64,000 bases of DNA from Candidatus Omnitrophota bacterium (GTDB lineage: Bacteria > Hinthialibacterota > Hinthialibacteria > Hinthialibacterales > JAKPRU01), in contig JAKQSI010000065.1 in assembly GCA_029570205.1 (NCBI GenBank), positions 1 through 64,000 of the forward strand. Reading direction: 5' to 3'. A program made the translations under genes and the position numbers. The notes under the pieces were generated by a model. It was not told the DNA's origin and ran no database searches. It worked only from the letters and a program-made list of their open reading frames with translations. Shown here piece by piece: positions 5,528 through 60,752 of the stretch. Each line of letters begins with the position of its first letter. The stretch's first letter is position 1.

Positions 5528-6601
5528 TCAACCGGCATTCATTTCATGGTCCGTGTCGCCGTAGAAGTGTCGCCTGATATAGAACGCGACATTCACCAGA
5601 CTAATCAACACCGGTACCTCCAGGAGCGGGCCGATGACGGTAGCGAAAGCCTGGTTCGAACTCACGCCGAAAATGGCCACGGCCACGGCGATGGCCAGCT
5701 CGAAATCGTTACTGGCGGCTGTGAACGAGACCGCAACGGACTTCTCGTAACCCACACCCATTCTGTACGTGACGAAGAATGTCACGAGCCACATTACGAA
5801 GAAATATATCGCAAGTGGGATCGCTATCCGGATAACATCGAAGGGCAATTCGACAATATACTCGCCCTTGAGCGAGAACATTACCACAATGGTGAACAGC
5901 AACGCAATCAAGGTGATCGGGCTGATTTTGGGGGTAAATACGCTCTCGTACCACTCCCGACCCTTGAGGGGGATCAATGTAAAGCGGGTTATCAGACCGG
6001 CGAGGAACGGAATGCCCAAATAGATGAAGACAGTTTTGGCGGCTTCACCGATGGAAACCTCGATATTCAGACCGTCAACAAGACCAAGAGCATTCAACAG
6101 TAGAGTGATGAATAGGTAGATATAGACGGCATAGAAGAGCACCTGGAAGACGGCATTCAAGGCAACAAGGCCGACCGCGAGCTCCCGGTCGCCCTCTGCC
6201 AGTTCATTCCAGACAATCACCATCGCGATGCAGCGGGCCAATCCCACAAGAATTACCCCGATCATATATTCGGGATAGTTGTGGAGAAATAGGATTGCAA
6301 GGAGCGTCATGAAGATCGGCCCGATAATCCAGTTCATTGCCAGAGAGAGCGAGAGCAGCCGTTTGTGCTCGAAGATCCGCCCCGATTCTTCGTAGCGGAC
6401 CTTCGCCAGCGGCGGATACATCATCAGAATTAATCCGATGGCAATGGGTACCGACGTGGTTCCGACCTGCAAACCTGCAATGAACTCCGCGACAGACGGC
6501 GTCACAAAACCGATGGCGACACCGATGACCATAGCAAGGAAGATCCAGAATGTGAGATATTTTTCGACTGTAGATAGTCGTTTTGTCTGTGGCGTGTCCA
6601 T
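5528..6601 (-). CDS. acr3: Arsenite efflux permease, ACR3 type
   Basis: This membrane transporter exports As(III) from the cytoplasm. It has about 357 residues and ten predicted helices. ACR3 hallmarks are [26 protein letters not shown] (with the conserved Cys) and [14 protein letters not shown]. It is the last gene of the arsenic operon. An ATG at 6610 overlaps the arsM stop as ATGA, but the AAAGG sequence is better placed for the ATG at 6601, which I chose; either start is possible. Coupling with arsM suggests that reduced arsenic is either methylated or expelled as As(III). Confidence 0.92.
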
Positions 6602-6606
6602 TGGGA

Positions 6607-7395
6607 TCATCCTTTCTTTCGCGCCTCGACAGTTGCAGACCTGACATAATCTTCGATACCACTGCCCGGAAACCAGTCCTTAATGAATTCTTGACTTTCG
6701 TGCTTGATGTCGATTCGAACCTGGGAAAAGCCCGTCGCGGACAGCATCCGCTCGATGTCGGCGACTGAAATCGCGCCCGCGACGCAACCGGAATGAACGT
6801 CAAGGTCTGATTTAATCTCATCGGGCAAGTCCCTGATGGCAACAACGTCTGAGATCGCAAGCCGACCCCCGGTGCGCAGTACTCGAAATGCCTCCCTGTA
6901 CACCTGTAATTTGTCCGGCGACAGGTTAATAACGCAATTTGAAATGATGACATCAACGGAATCATCGGCCACGGGAAGATGCTCGATTTCTCCGAGCCTG
7001 AACTCGACGTTGGTGAACCGGCCTTCTTTCGCGTTAGCCCTGGCCTTACTGATCATGTCGGGAGTCATATCGATCCCGATTACCTTGCCGGTCTCTCCAA
7101 CCTGCCGTGCGGCGAGGAAGCAGTCGAATCCGCCTCCGCATCCCAAGTCGAGAACGGTCTCGCCTGGTTTGAGATTTGCAATGGCCTGTGGATTTCCGCA
7201 ACCCAGGCCCATATTGGCCCCTTGCGGAGTGGAATTGATTTCCTGCTCGGAATAGCCGAGTTCGGCGGACATCTGTGGACTGTTGTTCTCGGATGGAGTA
7301 CAACAGGTACTTCCACAGCCGCAGCCGGACTTGACGATTGACGCATAGCGCTTGCGAACTTGGTCGCGTACAACATCAGGATCGACGGGAGACAT
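6607..7395 (-). CDS. arsM: Arsenite S-adenosylmethionine methyltransferase
   Basis: It methylates As(III) using SAM, giving methylated and volatile arsenicals. With the ATG at 7395 (strong GAAAGGA before it) the protein has 262 residues. The SAM motif is [16 protein letters not shown]. ArsM cysteines are present at about Cys66 (LGCGNP), Cys154 ([12 protein letters not shown]) and Cys204 (HSGCVAGA), with an N-terminal cluster GCGCGSTCC (Cys25, 27, 31 and 32). The conserved stretch [20 protein letters not shown] is typical of prokaryotic ArsM. It sits 98 bases after the CcdA-like gene and overlaps acr3. The family uses thiols to keep arsenic reduced, which fits the thioredoxins upstream. Confidence 0.94.
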
Positions 7396-50562: not shown

Positions 50563-51510
50563 TCAACTAACGGGGACTATAAGATTCGGTTTATCATTTC
50601 GGACGGGGAACACCCGGTTACAATTTCCGCAGACAATGGATTGCTCTTCCCACTGCACTCCGCTTCGGCAAATCGGGCAGGTTGCAATTCTTTCCAATAA
50701 CGCTCTTTTACTGCCGGCACGTTCCGATACGGTCGCGTCGCCCGGTTTTGTCGCGTGAAGGCAGTAATTATTCGGCATCTGCGGAATCGGGACCGCTTTC
50801 GGATATTCCTGGGCCGCGCCCTCCATGTTGTCCAGTGACCGGAACAGGGGACGCAGAGTCCGGTCGAGAAGCTGATTCATCCGGCTGTGTATTTCGGGCG
50901 GGACCATGGAGAGACCGAAGTCGACAAGGCTAAGCGCGGTTTCAAACAGACTATTCGAGGGCCGAAGAGAGCGGATTTCAAGTCCGCTGTTTTTGCACAG
51001 GTGCGCAAGACCGTATCGTGTGTATCGAAAGAAATCATAAGGCGCTTCATGTTCTGCGATTGTAAACGGTACGTAAAGGAACAGATGCCCGCCCGGTTTG
51101 AGGACGCGATAAAACTCCGAGAAAGCCTGCGCCGGATTCGTGTAGTGTTCCAGGCTGGTGAAATTCAGCCCCACATCGACGGTTTCCGAATGAATGGGAA
51201 GCGCATGGGCATCGCCGATCAGGTCCAGTTTGCTGTAGTCCCATTTCGGATTGCCGATGCCGGAGTCGATCGCGAGATACTGGGAATGCGCGAAGAAAGC
51301 CTTGTAACGGCATTGCCCGGCGCTGATATCCAATACCACCGATGTGTCCGAGCAGTGTAGAGAAGCCTCCCAGAGCAGCGCAAATACGGCTTCGCCGGGC
51401 TTTGTCTGGGGAACGGCGGTCCATCCCATATCGGTTGAGAATCTGCGCCGCAATTCTTCTTTGGACAGGCGCTCAGGAAATTCCGGGAACCGCTCGTCTG
51501 TTTCAGTCAT
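50563..51510 (-). CDS. SAM-dependent methyltransferase with C-terminal zinc ribbon
   Basis: This protein of about 315 residues starts at the ATG with AAGGA upstream (51510; a TTG just before is unlikely). The class I fold is VVLDISAGQCRYKAFF, then VDVGLNFTSLEHYTNP and LKPGGHLFLYVPF. The C-terminus has CPIC and CGNC, a Trm112-like zinc ribbon. It is probably a glycan or small-molecule methyltransferase. It is 111 bases downstream of the three-domain glycan protein on the same strand, so they likely work together. Confidence 0.78.
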   Translation of the reverse strand: MTETDERFPEFPERLSKEELRRRFSTDMGWTAVPQTKPGEAVFALLWEASLHCSDTSVVLDISAGQCRYKAFFAHSQYLAIDSGIGNPKWDYSKLDLIGDAHALPIHSETVDVGLNFTSLEHYTNPAQAFSEFYRVLKPGGHLFLYVPFTIAEHEAPYDFFRYTRYGLAHLCKNSGLEIRSLRPSNSLFETALSLVDFGLSMVPPEIHSRMNQLLDRTLRPLFRSLDNMEGAAQEYPKAVPIPQMPNNYCLHATKPGDATVSERAGSKRALLERIATCPICRSGVQWEEQSIVCGNCNRVFPVRNDKPNLIVPVS

Positions 51511-51620: not shown

Positions 51621-53924
51621 TCAGAGAACGTAATCCTCCGGGAAATTGTACATCCGGGGAGCCGGGTGCGGTTTGCGGTTGCGCATCGCCGCAAATAACT
51701 GACAAAAGAGTGTTGACATGTTATATCGATTCCACAGTTCTTCTTTCGAGCGGTACGAAGGAGTCCACGGCTCCTGCTCCATCTCCTCAAGGACCCGTTC
51801 GGTCGAACACCCGCGAATCTCCCTGGCGTAGTTTTTCTCGGCGAACGGTTCATTCCGCTCCCGAATATCCGACAGGACTGCCTGATTACGGGATCGGACC
51901 GCATCAATAATTGTACGAACATCCTCGATGGTTTTCAGAATCGGTACCCGGCCGAAAAACTCTTTCACCTGTTCGTCATAGAGCCGCATTACCTGGGGCA
52001 ACAGCAATGCGGTCGGAACCCCGGCCAGGACCCCTTCCAGGTAACAGGTAGAGGGAACGGAGATCAGGAGATCCACGACTTTCAACAGGCGAGTCAAATG
52101 AAAATCGAAGGCGTGGCACATATCGTCTAAAAGGAAAACGAGATTGTCGCAATCCAGAATCTTCGAGTACATCGGCGGTTTTTCATGCGGACCGACTTTC
52201 AATACAAATAATATATCGGGAAACTCCAATACCGTCCGACAAACGGTCTCTATGGAGGAAGAATAATCCTCCCATTGCGGGTCGAAATGGGTAGCGATCA
52301 GGGTAACCATATTGAAAGAACTGTAATAATCTCCGAACAGATCCGTGAGAGTGCAGGGAGTGTCCCTGAAGTAGACATCGAATTGAGGCGAACCGGCGAT
52401 GACCAGGCGGCTTCGGTCGACCATGTATCTCGGCAGATCGGGAACAAAAGGGCCGGGTCCCGTGTAATAATCCACATTGGCCTGCGAATGCACAAATACC
52501 TTGTCGGAGAAAAAGGTGACCGGACGGGTGTTGCCCCGCGTCGCTCCATGCTGAACGAGACCTGTCCTGGCTCCGCAGAGGGATGCTGCCAGTGTGTACG
52601 ATGCGGCATACAGCAATCCATAATCCCCGTCTCCTTCAATACTGGTCATCCAAATATCATTCGGACCGAGGATATCGAGAATATCCTGATTCCGTTCGGC
52701 CACAATCGGCTCAATTCCGCAGGATCGCAACCGGCTCTCCGTCACATCCTGAGACAGCAGCGGCGCCGTCAGGAACCAGGAGGTAAACGCACGGACTTTC
52801 TGCGGATCCACCATGCGCACAAGGCTTTCAAAATGTTTCCAGGCATTGTGCGCCAGGCAGGCGAAATTCAGATTTCGATACAGATTCCACTGTTTTTTCT
52901 CAAGTACAGGAAGTGGGAGGCTTCCCTCCGAAACCTTCAACAGAAAGAAGGCGGCCTCCATCCCCTGTTCCGCCGGGGACGACCGAAAAGGAAAATTGAG
53001 CGCACGGGCAGTCCGTGGATACTTCTCCAGAGCGAGAGATTTCATCCGTTCGGATGTGCAATCCTCTACAATCTCAAAACCGGAACCGCGAAAACAACTT
53101 CGCCACCATTGTGCCGGACGGATACAATTATTCGGAAAAACGACGTCGAAAAAAAGCCGGACAGAGATCAATAGAAATGCCGGATTGATCTCGCGAAATA
53201 ATTGAAGGTAATCCTGTACTCGATCCGGGTTCTGTTGAGACAAAAAATCTATGCAAATCAGCAGGTCGTACCGACCCGGTACAGGAGGCTTCTGTGCAGG
53301 ATGGACGACATCCTCGGTATTCAACAATTCCACAAGATATTTCGACGGTTCCAATCCCTGCACCTCGAAGCCGCACGAACGAAGATACCGCACTACATCG
53401 CCGTGCCCACACGCAAAATCCAGAACACGATTTGTGCCGTGTTGCGATCGCAACGTTTCAAGTACTTCGCGAAGTCGCGCAACATTACAGGGAAGAATCC
53501 GTCCGGGAATCTTGCGATAAAAGAAATCCCGGGAAAGATCGGACTGGTGTGCCGGAATGGTCGATCTCGGTTCAGTGTCGAGCGACGCTCCACGAGGTCC
53601 CGGAAAGAATACCTCGCGTCTTTCCACCGGCAGTTCGGCTTGTCCCAGAGGAACGATGGACAAAGTCAAAGGAACACTACGGGGAGGCCCGGAGATCGGA
53701 ATAGTGTATCGGAATCCATATAAGTTTTCTTTCGGGCAATTGGGGATAGCCGAAGTCAGGTCCCGCGCACAGCGCTCGCATCGGTATCTGGCCCCGTCCA
53801 TCTGAACGAATATCTCGTGGCGTGTTTCCTGGGGAAGATAAAACCACCCGGTTACTTCGACCGAGTCATCGAGTACCTGTCGGGGCCTCGGCGTGTCCCA
53901 GGAATATCGAATCTGTTCGGCCAT
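51621..53924 (-). CDS. Three-domain fusion: beta-sandwich / methyltransferase / GT-B glycosyltransferase-like
   Basis: This protein has 767 residues from the ATG at 53924; ATG at 54014 would add 30 residues that do not look coding. Residues 1-110 form a beta-sandwich (VEVTGWFYLPQET...MDGARYRCERC) seen in surface-polysaccharide proteins. Residues about 150-330 are a class I methyltransferase (RVLDFACGHGDVVRYLRSCG). Residues about 375-767 resemble CDP-glycerol-phosphotransferase-like GT-B enzymes, with LVQHGATRGN (about 456), VIAGSPQFDVYF and VPSTCYLEGVLAGVPTALLLP. I infer synthesis and methyl-capping of a surface glycan. Confidence 0.65.
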   Translation of the reverse strand: MAEQIRYSWDTPRPRQVLDDSVEVTGWFYLPQETRHEIFVQMDGARYRCERCARDLTSAIPNCPKENLYGFRYTIPISGPPRSVPLTLSIVPLGQAELPVERREVFFPGPRGASLDTEPRSTIPAHQSDLSRDFFYRKIPGRILPCNVARLREVLETLRSQHGTNRVLDFACGHGDVVRYLRSCGFEVQGLEPSKYLVELLNTEDVVHPAQKPPVPGRYDLLICIDFLSQQNPDRVQDYLQLFREINPAFLLISVRLFFDVVFPNNCIRPAQWWRSCFRGSGFEIVEDCTSERMKSLALEKYPRTARALNFPFRSSPAEQGMEAAFFLLKVSEGSLPLPVLEKKQWNLYRNLNFACLAHNAWKHFESLVRMVDPQKVRAFTSWFLTAPLLSQDVTESRLRSCGIEPIVAERNQDILDILGPNDIWMTSIEGDGDYGLLYAASYTLAASLCGARTGLVQHGATRGNTRPVTFFSDKVFVHSQANVDYYTGPGPFVPDLPRYMVDRSRLVIAGSPQFDVYFRDTPCTLTDLFGDYYSSFNMVTLIATHFDPQWEDYSSSIETVCRTVLEFPDILFVLKVGPHEKPPMYSKILDCDNLVFLLDDMCHAFDFHLTRLLKVVDLLISVPSTCYLEGVLAGVPTALLLPQVMRLYDEQVKEFFGRVPILKTIEDVRTIIDAVRSRNQAVLSDIRERNEPFAEKNYAREIRGCSTERVLEEMEQEPWTPSYRSKEELWNRYNMSTLFCQLFAAMRNRKPHPAPRMYNFPEDYVL

Positions 53925-59306: not shown

Positions 59307-60752
59307 ATGCGGAAACCTGCAATGATCTCCACTCGAAAACGAGGCGTACCCAAAGGGCCACTATACAAGTTCGTGATCGTCGATCTCCTGGTCGCCGTTG
59401 CGTCCATGCTCGCGGCATTCCGGATCAAGTTCGGCGAGTACCCATTTCCGGCACAGAATTTCCTTTTTATTGCTTATCTCTTTCCGGTTCTGTTCGCCAT
59501 CCGCTTTTTTGTCTTCCTGAAGTTCAGACTCTATGATTTTCGACGTCGTTACACGCCGTTTGATGTTGTCTATCTGACTCTCGGAGCCGTTGCTTTCTCA
59601 CGGGTTGTGGAGAGTTTCACCGTTTACTATGTCGCGTTGTATTGGTCCACCGGAACAGACCTCCAGCCATCACGGGCGATTCTGTTTCTGTGGGATCCCG
59701 CCCTGTTTTGGCTGGGGTGCTGCGCGTGGCGACTTTTGTACCTTCTCCGTCGGCGGCGCTGGGCGTACGACCGAACCCGGGTATTGATTGTCGGCGCGGG
59801 AGACCAGGGGGAAAGTATTCGGCACGATATTTCCGAATACTCCGCGCTGGGGCACGAGGTTGTGGGTCTGGTGGATGACGGCATAGAGGAAAAAGCCCCC
59901 GGAGCGGATGTGCTTGGAACCTTGCGGCAATTGCCGAAACTGGTTGAGGAATATGATGTCGATGAAATCATTGTTGCCACGGAGCGGGCCGGGCGGGATG
60001 ATCTGCTCCGAATTCTCTCGCAATGCCAGATCGAGGATGTGCAAGTCTGGCTGCTTCCTGCGCTGTATGAAGTTACCATCGGGCGCGTGGAGATCGGCGA
60101 AGTAGCCGGAATCCCCCTGATCACCGCCAACCGCGAACCGTTAGGCGACTGGGGGAGTTTTTTCAAGCGGTCGGCAGATTTAGTTTTTGCCCTGATTGGT
60201 CTCCTGTTTCTGTTACTGGTTCTGCCTCTGATTGCTTTACTTATCAAGTTGAGTAGTCCCGGCCCGGTTTTTTACCGGCAAAAGCGGGTCGGAAAAGACG
60301 GGCGAATGTTTACGTTGTACAAGTTCCGAACCATGCGCCAGGATGCGGAGAAATCCTCCGGCCCGGTTCTGTCCTGGGCGGACGATCCCCGCGTCACCCC
60401 CATTGGGCGGATTTTGCGCCGACTTCATCTGGATGAGCTGCCGCAACTATGGAATGTTCTCAAAGGCGACATGAGCATTGTCGGTCCACGCCCCGAGCGG
60501 CCGGAATTCGCCGAGGAATTCAGTCAACGTTTTCCGGCGTATCGGCTTCGATTCGCTGTGCGGCCCGGCATGACCGGACTGGCCCAAATCCATGGCTATT
60601 ACGATTCCCCCGTGGAGCATAAACTTCGCTATGACTTGGCCTATATCGGCAACATTTCCGGTCTGCTGGACCTGAAAATTCTTCTGAGTACCCTGAGAGC
60701 CACGCTGAGTGGAAGAGAACAAGTCCGAGAGAGAAACCACCGCGATGCGTGA
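59307..60752 (+). CDS. Polyprenyl-phosphate sugar-1-phosphate transferase (WbaP-like)
   Basis: This 481-residue membrane protein has four N-terminal helices (about 20-150), a Rossmann-like CoA-binding-type domain (VLIVGAGDQGESIRHDISE) and a C-terminal transferase starting with a fifth helix. The catalytic part has SPGPVFYRQKRVG, LYKFRTMRQDAE, LDELPQLWNVLKGDMS, VGPRPERPEF and RPGMTGLAQ. It starts exopolysaccharide or O-antigen units by moving a sugar phosphate to undecaprenyl phosphate. The ATG at 59322 is better placed after GGAAA. It overlaps the thiamine gene by eight bases. Confidence 0.92.
   Translation: MRKPAMISTRKRGVPKGPLYKFVIVDLLVAVASMLAAFRIKFGEYPFPAQNFLFIAYLFPVLFAIRFFVFLKFRLYDFRRRYTPFDVVYLTLGAVAFSRVVESFTVYYVALYWSTGTDLQPSRAILFLWDPALFWLGCCAWRLLYLLRRRRWAYDRTRVLIVGAGDQGESIRHDISEYSALGHEVVGLVDDGIEEKAPGADVLGTLRQLPKLVEEYDVDEIIVATERAGRDDLLRILSQCQIEDVQVWLLPALYEVTIGRVEIGEVAGIPLITANREPLGDWGSFFKRSADLVFALIGLLFLLLVLPLIALLIKLSSPGPVFYRQKRVGKDGRMFTLYKFRTMRQDAEKSSGPVLSWADDPRVTPIGRILRRLHLDELPQLWNVLKGDMSIVGPRPERPEFAEEFSQRFPAYRLRFAVRPGMTGLAQIHGYYDSPVEHKLRYDLAYIGNISGLLDLKILLSTLRATLSGREQVRERNHRDA

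Follow-up and report, generated by a model that had tools for sequence, protein, structure and literature searches.

A gene in a Candidatus Omnitrophota genome encodes a 767-residue protein, designated P0001, in which a beta-sandwich predicted at medium confidence, a predicted class I SAM-dependent methyltransferase and a GT-B-like domain follow one another on a single chain. A methyltransferase joined to a GT-B-like domain, and encoded beside a second methyltransferase (P0002), fits a glycan-methylating enzyme. The reading we favor, tentatively and at somewhat less than an even chance, is that P0001 both adds and methylates a sugar and works with P0002. What appears to be new, judging from sequence, is this combination with an altered donor site, which we saw in three genomes, all belonging to a single genus. 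The window (the whole stretch of 64,000 nucleotides analyzed here) is part of C20, a 199-kb contig in a genome of 4.39 Mb and 131 contigs. The features discussed below, all on the minus strand, are as follows.

51621..53924, minus: P0001, whole gene, 767 aa plus stop; congeners L007 and L008 share its ATG start
53601..53912, minus: N-terminal beta-sandwich, residues about 5-108, seven strands in an AlphaFold2 model
52926..53534, minus: predicted class I SAM-dependent methyltransferase, residues about 131-333, from PF13489 and a profile against PDB
53397..53426, minus: putative SAM-binding motif I, VLDFACGHGD, residues 167-176, invariant in the three congeners
51894..52694, minus: GT-B core as aligned to relatives by hhalign, residues 411-677 (whole domain about 345-690)
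52545..52553, minus: QHG motif, residues 458-460 (His459); of the 26 relatives, 14 have this His and 20 this Gly
52185..52199, minus: site of the K-x-H-P motif, residues 576-580, reading K-V-G-P-H in P0001; Gly578 takes the place of the His carried by 24 of 26 relatives
52035..52052, minus: S-T-x-x-x-E motif, residues 625-630; Ser in 25 of 26 and Glu in 24 of 26 relatives
50563..51510, minus: P0002, class I methyltransferase with a C-terminal Trm112-type zinc ribbon (PF08241 44.2 bits, PF03966 28.4 bits)

An earlier note on this DNA gave the coordinates 51621-53924 and a length of 767 residues, both of which are correct; the strand, which it did not state, is minus. The plus-strand reading of the same interval is interrupted by stops, while the minus strand holds a single 767-codon open reading frame plus stop. 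An alternative ATG further upstream would lengthen the product to 797 residues, but the copies in L007 and L008, both from metagenome-assembled genomes deposited as Candidatus Omnitrophota, begin at the ATG of the 767-residue form. Over the whole gene, dN/dS against L007 is 0.096, and P0001 is therefore a real protein under constraint. The same comparison gives 0.162 for the N-terminal part, 0.075 for the methyltransferase, 0.054 for the N half of the GT-B-like domain (345-505) and 0.110 for its C half (506-690), with the phosphoglycerate mutase gene (0.045) as yardstick; P0002 has 0.063. Purifying selection acts on each part of P0001 in this comparison (dN/dS 0.05-0.16). Against the nearer congener L008, where changes are few, the values are 0.428 for the N-terminal part, 0.166 for the methyltransferase and 0.054 for the GT-B N half.

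For the N-terminal domain, an AlphaFold2 model of residues 1-120, built from three sequences, has a mean pLDDT of 68.1 and a pTM of 0.55, with strands at residues 6-10, 21-29, 36-42, 45-49, 68-76, 82-92 and 98-107. We assign it, with medium confidence, to the beta-sandwiches in general fold. No Pfam family reaches its cut-off on this domain, NCBIfam has no match to it, and none of 1989 Foldseek matches to the model has an E-value of 0.001 or less. VIA-align with the same model gives Z >= 8 in 56 of 999 cases; the best (Z 9.1, rmsd 2.3 over 93 residues) is the N-terminal domain of the glycosidase Apg, with glycosidase accessory domains only slightly ahead of those of ICAM-1 and antibodies. Because the Z scores are nearly tied across many Ig-like folds, they support the general fold alone, and a function is not derivable from them. 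At E <= 1, a search covering 14 genomes from the class yielded no relative of this domain that we accepted beyond the congeners. A three-row profile of the domain, run against 386 genomes, found 17 matches in 16 genomes at E <= 0.1 with the three congeners set aside; their best E-value is 3.4e-4 per genome, ten of the 17 contain internal stops, and all were taken as chance.

The middle domain is predicted to be a class I SAM-dependent methyltransferase. PF13489 (Methyltransf_23) matches P0001 at 32.4 bits, above its cut-off of 27, and the segment VLDFACGHGD is what we take to be the SAM-binding motif I. Searched against PDB at E <= 1, a three-row profile of the domain found 18 sequences, of which 15 are named methyltransferases, with a best E-value of just 0.0048. 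A single-sequence search of PDB with P0001 also returned methyltransferases, the best at E 0.15.

The C-terminal part of P0001 matches no Pfam family. Its nearest curated families are NCBIfam models NF046086 (BFO_1060 glycosyltransferase), which matches the C-terminal 433 residues at E 2.4e-10 and 40.1 bits and the whole protein at 37.5 bits, against a cut-off of 200, and TIGR04396 (surface carbohydrate biosynthesis protein), which matches the C-terminal part at E 0.0022 and 17 bits, against a cut-off of 125. P0001 thus falls far under both cut-offs, and it differs further from these families in missing the HP histidine; NF046086 itself has no match above cut-off in any of 145 genomes. Relatives were defined as open reading frames matched by NF046086 in those 145 genomes, with 42 matches listed. 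The set used for motifs comprises 26 distinct frames plus P0001, leaving out the P0001 orthologue in sibling genome G001, merged duplicates and 13 further matches; a primase brought in by a weak match (L013) was removed. Fourteen of the 26 relatives made up the profile for hhalign. A three-row profile of P0001 residues 335-767 matches this profile at 98.3% and E 2.4e-14 over residues 411-677. Controls gave 1.3% for reversed P0001, 0.3% for the N-terminal part, 0.1% for the methyltransferase part and at most 1.0% for 20 column shuffles. The relatives were picked by a family model that already matches P0001 weakly, so the profile-profile test is not blind, but the match is long and the controls are low, which makes the GT-B family relationship firm.

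Against PDB, the 14-relative profile finds TarL (3.2e-15), CapG (1.9e-12), TagF (2.6e-4) and SiaD (0.0054), as well as WecB-type epimerases, all of which we take to have GT-B folds. The profile of the P0001 C-terminal half by itself found chance-like matches only in PDB, with no GT-B structure among them, and a full-length AlphaFold2 model has a mean pLDDT of 32.6. At the level of sequence profiles, then, the third domain can firmly be called GT-B-like and homologous over the GT-B core, and the fold that the earlier note had singled out as the point where its reading could fail is supported. The order of three domains that it described on one protein also stands, resting on a medium-confidence model for the beta-sandwich, on Pfam for the methyltransferase and on profile-profile comparison for the GT-B-like domain.

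Within the GT-B-like domain, P0001 keeps the QHG and S-T-x-x-x-E motifs and the glycine of a G-x-P-x-x-D motif found in 22 of the 26 relatives. The exception is the HP site, where each of the three congeners reads GPH. Outside the genus, the nearest relative, in G227 (E 3.1e-8 with the C-terminal profile), has KLHPDEKP where P0001 has KVGPHEKP, in a gapless alignment made by eye. In a polysialyltransferase, the HP motif binds the donor phosphate, and single mutants, including that of the histidine, retain some activity (PMC2169525, in the parts covered). TagF-like domains need two histidines, H444 and H584 in TagF (PMC5974469, in the parts covered), and from an alignment with TarL we infer that H584 is the HP histidine. 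With Gly578 at this position, either donor binding is different, or His580 took over, or transfer was lost; the GT-B domain of P0001 may be inactive or may use other donor chemistry. The G227 relative is seemingly split over two frames (L084, about 6160-7012, plus strand), and the genes around it read, by eye, like lipopolysaccharide core and Kdo genes. The genome that carries P0001 also encodes, on contig C31, a second protein of the TIGR04396/BFO_1060 type (L035:2022-4031, plus strand), 670 aa long, with the HP motif intact and no methyltransferase family match.

P0001 lies between a divergent phosphoglycerate mutase-type gene and P0002, which is followed by CobO/BtuR and redoxin genes, and this order, including the P0001-P0002 pair, is kept in L007. 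The P0002 ATG, at 51510, is 110 nt past the P0001 stop. The description of this next gene as a methyltransferase with a zinc ribbon is borne out, PF08241 and PF03966 (Trm112p) both scoring above cut-off. In the sibling genome G001, a 578-aa fusion (L074:5863-7599, minus strand) joins Sulfotransfer_2 (30.0 bits, cut-off 22) to a methyltransferase resembling P0002 and to a Trm112-type zinc ribbon whose Trm112p match is just at cut-off; it is 46% identical to P0002 over residues 11-314. The fusion of a P0002 homologue to Sulfotransfer_2 points to a glycan or glycolipid substrate. P0001 is outside any glycan gene cluster, and the nearest glycan gene is a Bac_transf sugar transferase about 5 kb off. 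That gene (59307-60752 of the window, plus strand) encodes Bac_transf, of the polyprenyl-phosphate sugar transferase type, together with CoA_binding_3, and its flanking genes do not look glycan-related.

Full-length matches to P0001 occur in three genomes of one genus, where a contig end truncates one of the copies; the remaining 11 genomes from the class have none. The C-terminal profile finds four of 386 genomes, namely the three congeners and G227. A search of genome contigs, sensitive to close relatives only, found two relatives, the same two congeners. A scan of viral contigs found no relative of P0001, and plasmids gave no match at E 0.01; in phages, three records, among which one phage appears with two accession numbers, matched the methyltransferase region only. 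Among the 27 open reading frames with this type of GT-B domain, a Pfam methyltransferase is present in just one, P0001 itself. An 885-aa protein in G110 (L042:3975-6629, plus strand) matches Glyco_trans_1_2 and Glyphos_transf at its two ends, and by eye has a methyltransferase-like segment between these glycosyltransferase-type parts; Pfam calls none there, and the protein is a possible independent fusion.

Enzymes that join methyl and sugar transfer on one chain have been described, and P0001, with its methyltransferase from Pfam and its GT-B-like domain from hhalign, has both kinds of domain on one chain as they do. WsaE of Geobacillus stearothermophilus, which acts on the S-layer glycan, consists of a methyltransferase and two rhamnosyltransferase domains and makes a 2-O-methyl cap (PMC2943079, in the parts covered). 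It resembles P0001 in carrying the methyltransferase on the N-terminal side of a glycosyltransferase, and differs in having two glycosyltransferase domains and a cluster with Wzm/Wzt; the parts of that paper covered mention no N-terminal beta-sandwich such as P0001 has. Klebsiella pneumoniae O7 ORF6 combines a methyltransferase, a kinase, an Ig-like carbohydrate-binding fold, a coiled coil and two GT2 modules (PMC11231755, in part). It shares with P0001 a methyltransferase, an immunoglobulin-like fold and glycosyltransferase modules on one chain, whereas its kinase domain, coiled-coil ruler, paired GT2 modules and ABC-transporter pathway set it apart. In A064R of PBCV-1, two rhamnosyltransferases are joined to a methyltransferase, and a separate protein, A061L, then adds a second methyl (PMC9614988, sections consulted). 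The pair A064R and A061L appears to resemble P0001 and P0002 in layout, a two-activity chain followed by a separate methyltransferase. A064R itself comes from a virus and carries a pair of glycosyltransferase domains, of which the first is GT-A-like, with its methyltransferase at the C-terminus. TagF-like polymerases (TagF, TarL, Cps7D) share with P0001 the GT-B core and the first (QHG/HG) histidine; P0001 differs in lacking the second histidine and any PF04464 match.

Since WsaE, ORF6 and A064R are published, P0001 is no first instance of methyl and sugar transfer on one chain, and the novelty that the earlier note saw in the single chain does not hold. Its proposal that one protein extends and methylates a glycan agrees with the domains of P0001 and with the second methyltransferase alongside, though it is not new. 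To the question it raised of whether the architecture is already common and characterized, the answer is divided: the functional kind is characterized in those three enzymes, as far as the parts of the papers covered go, while the exact architecture is not common, occurring in one of 27 frames. Literature searches found single-chain precedents and, among the papers listed, none with the beta-sandwich/methyltransferase/GT-B architecture; they found no text combining Omnitrophota with glycosyltransferase and methyltransferase, and none combining Tannerella forsythia with BFO_1060.

In the reading we favor, the GT-B domain would most likely take a sugar from a nucleotide donor other than CDP-glycerol and attach it to a glycan that is either still growing or complete, and the methyltransferase domain would then O-methylate the residue so added on the same acceptor. 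The N-terminal beta-sandwich may serve to bind the acceptor glycan, and P0002 would probably methylate the product once more, in the way that A061L follows A064R in PBCV-1. The Pfam methyltransferase, the profile-profile match to GT-B relatives, the retained motifs, the constraint on each part, the P0001-P0002 pair kept in L007, the Sulfotransfer_2 fusion, the published single-chain enzymes and the names of the nearest NCBIfam families, a glycosyltransferase and a surface-carbohydrate biosynthesis protein, speak for this reading; Gly578, the epimerases that share the fold, the lack of a glycan cluster and the N-terminal dN/dS of 0.43 against L008 speak against it. It is unlikely, though a possibility of appreciable weight, that the methyltransferase is the only catalytic part, the GT-B domain having been left without a donor site and serving instead to bind a nucleotide or the acceptor glycan. 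The glycine that replaces the HP histidine throughout the congeners, at a position where nearly all relatives keep it, and the failure of any Pfam glycosyltransferase family to recognize the domain would suit such a loss; yet both GT-B halves are constrained, the QHG and S-T-x-x-x-E motifs are intact, His580, two positions further along, could substitute, and a polysialyltransferase with its single histidine mutated retains some activity (PMC2169525, same parts). UDP-GlcNAc 2-epimerases are found among the GT-B relatives, so the fold by itself is no proof of transfer: the relatives' profile matches their structures in PDB, and PF02350 is present in 11 of the 27 frames. The domain could accordingly be imagined as a sugar-nucleotide epimerase or hydrolase of the WecB/NeuC type, with the methyltransferase acting on a sugar nucleotide or small molecule and not on a glycan. 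We consider this distinctly unlikely, given that the best PDB match of the relatives' profile is TarL, that the QHG of P0001 corresponds to an EAG segment in CapG, and that P0001 itself matches no epimerase family.

The earlier note likened P0001 to proteins that control O-antigen chain length, and a methyltransferase with a GT-B-like domain on one chain would be in keeping with a protein that elongates a polysaccharide and caps it with methyl, so setting chain length like WbdD-type terminators. A characteristic marker of such terminators is a coiled coil (PMC11231755, in part), and P0001 has a single heptad stretch of 31 residues by our own uncalibrated score. No ABC transporter (Wzm/Wzt) lies beside it; the genome has three Wzt_C genes, none near P0001, the nearest being about 126 kb away on C20. 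The anatomy of a terminator is instead suggested by another protein of the genome, an 865-aa product of C20 at about 182668-185265 (L078:10669-13266, plus strand) that combines two methyltransferase stretches with a long coiled coil, its heptads at 612-771 and 776-844 covering about 230 residues by the same uncalibrated score. It adjoins a GT4-type glycosyltransferase and a Wzt that carries Wzt_C (L078:7890-9155), at about 179.9-185.3 kb of C20, and from sequence it is a candidate WbdD-like chain terminator. We therefore hold chain-length control by P0001, with no ruler, no adjoining Wzt and a better candidate in the same genome, to be improbable. An 823-aa protein of the same methyltransferase-methyltransferase-coiled-coil kind is found in G006, of another family in the same order (L046:1290-3761, minus strand), where it adjoins a gene that by eye resembles an ABC-transporter ATPase. 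The label "CDP-glycerol-type" for the transferase proved too specific, and we rejected it. The relatives' profile does match the TarL and TagF structures, and PF04464 is present in nine of the 27 frames; P0001 itself has no PF04464 match at E <= 1 over the whole protein or at E <= 0.1 over the C-terminal part, and of the two histidines that define TagF-like domains (PMC5974469, same parts) it keeps His459 while the HP histidine is glycine. We consider it very improbable that the domain belongs to the TagF family as a transferase for polyol phosphate or CDP-glycerol.

A bolder form of the favored reading, which we regard as rather unlikely, is that P0001 represents a new glycosyltransferase family in the TagF/TIGR04396 superfamily, one whose donor-phosphate histidine has shifted position or been replaced (K-V-G-P-H versus K-x-H-P). 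It would then be a compact enzyme made of beta-sandwich, methyltransferase and GT-B domains, attaching a residue and methylating that same residue with no ruler or export partner, and P0002 would carry out a second methylating step. The glycine-for-histidine change makes a clean test of how far the superfamily needs the HP motif. If both domains work, P0001 would be a compact, independent case of one protein adding and methylating a sugar, outside any obvious polysaccharide cluster.
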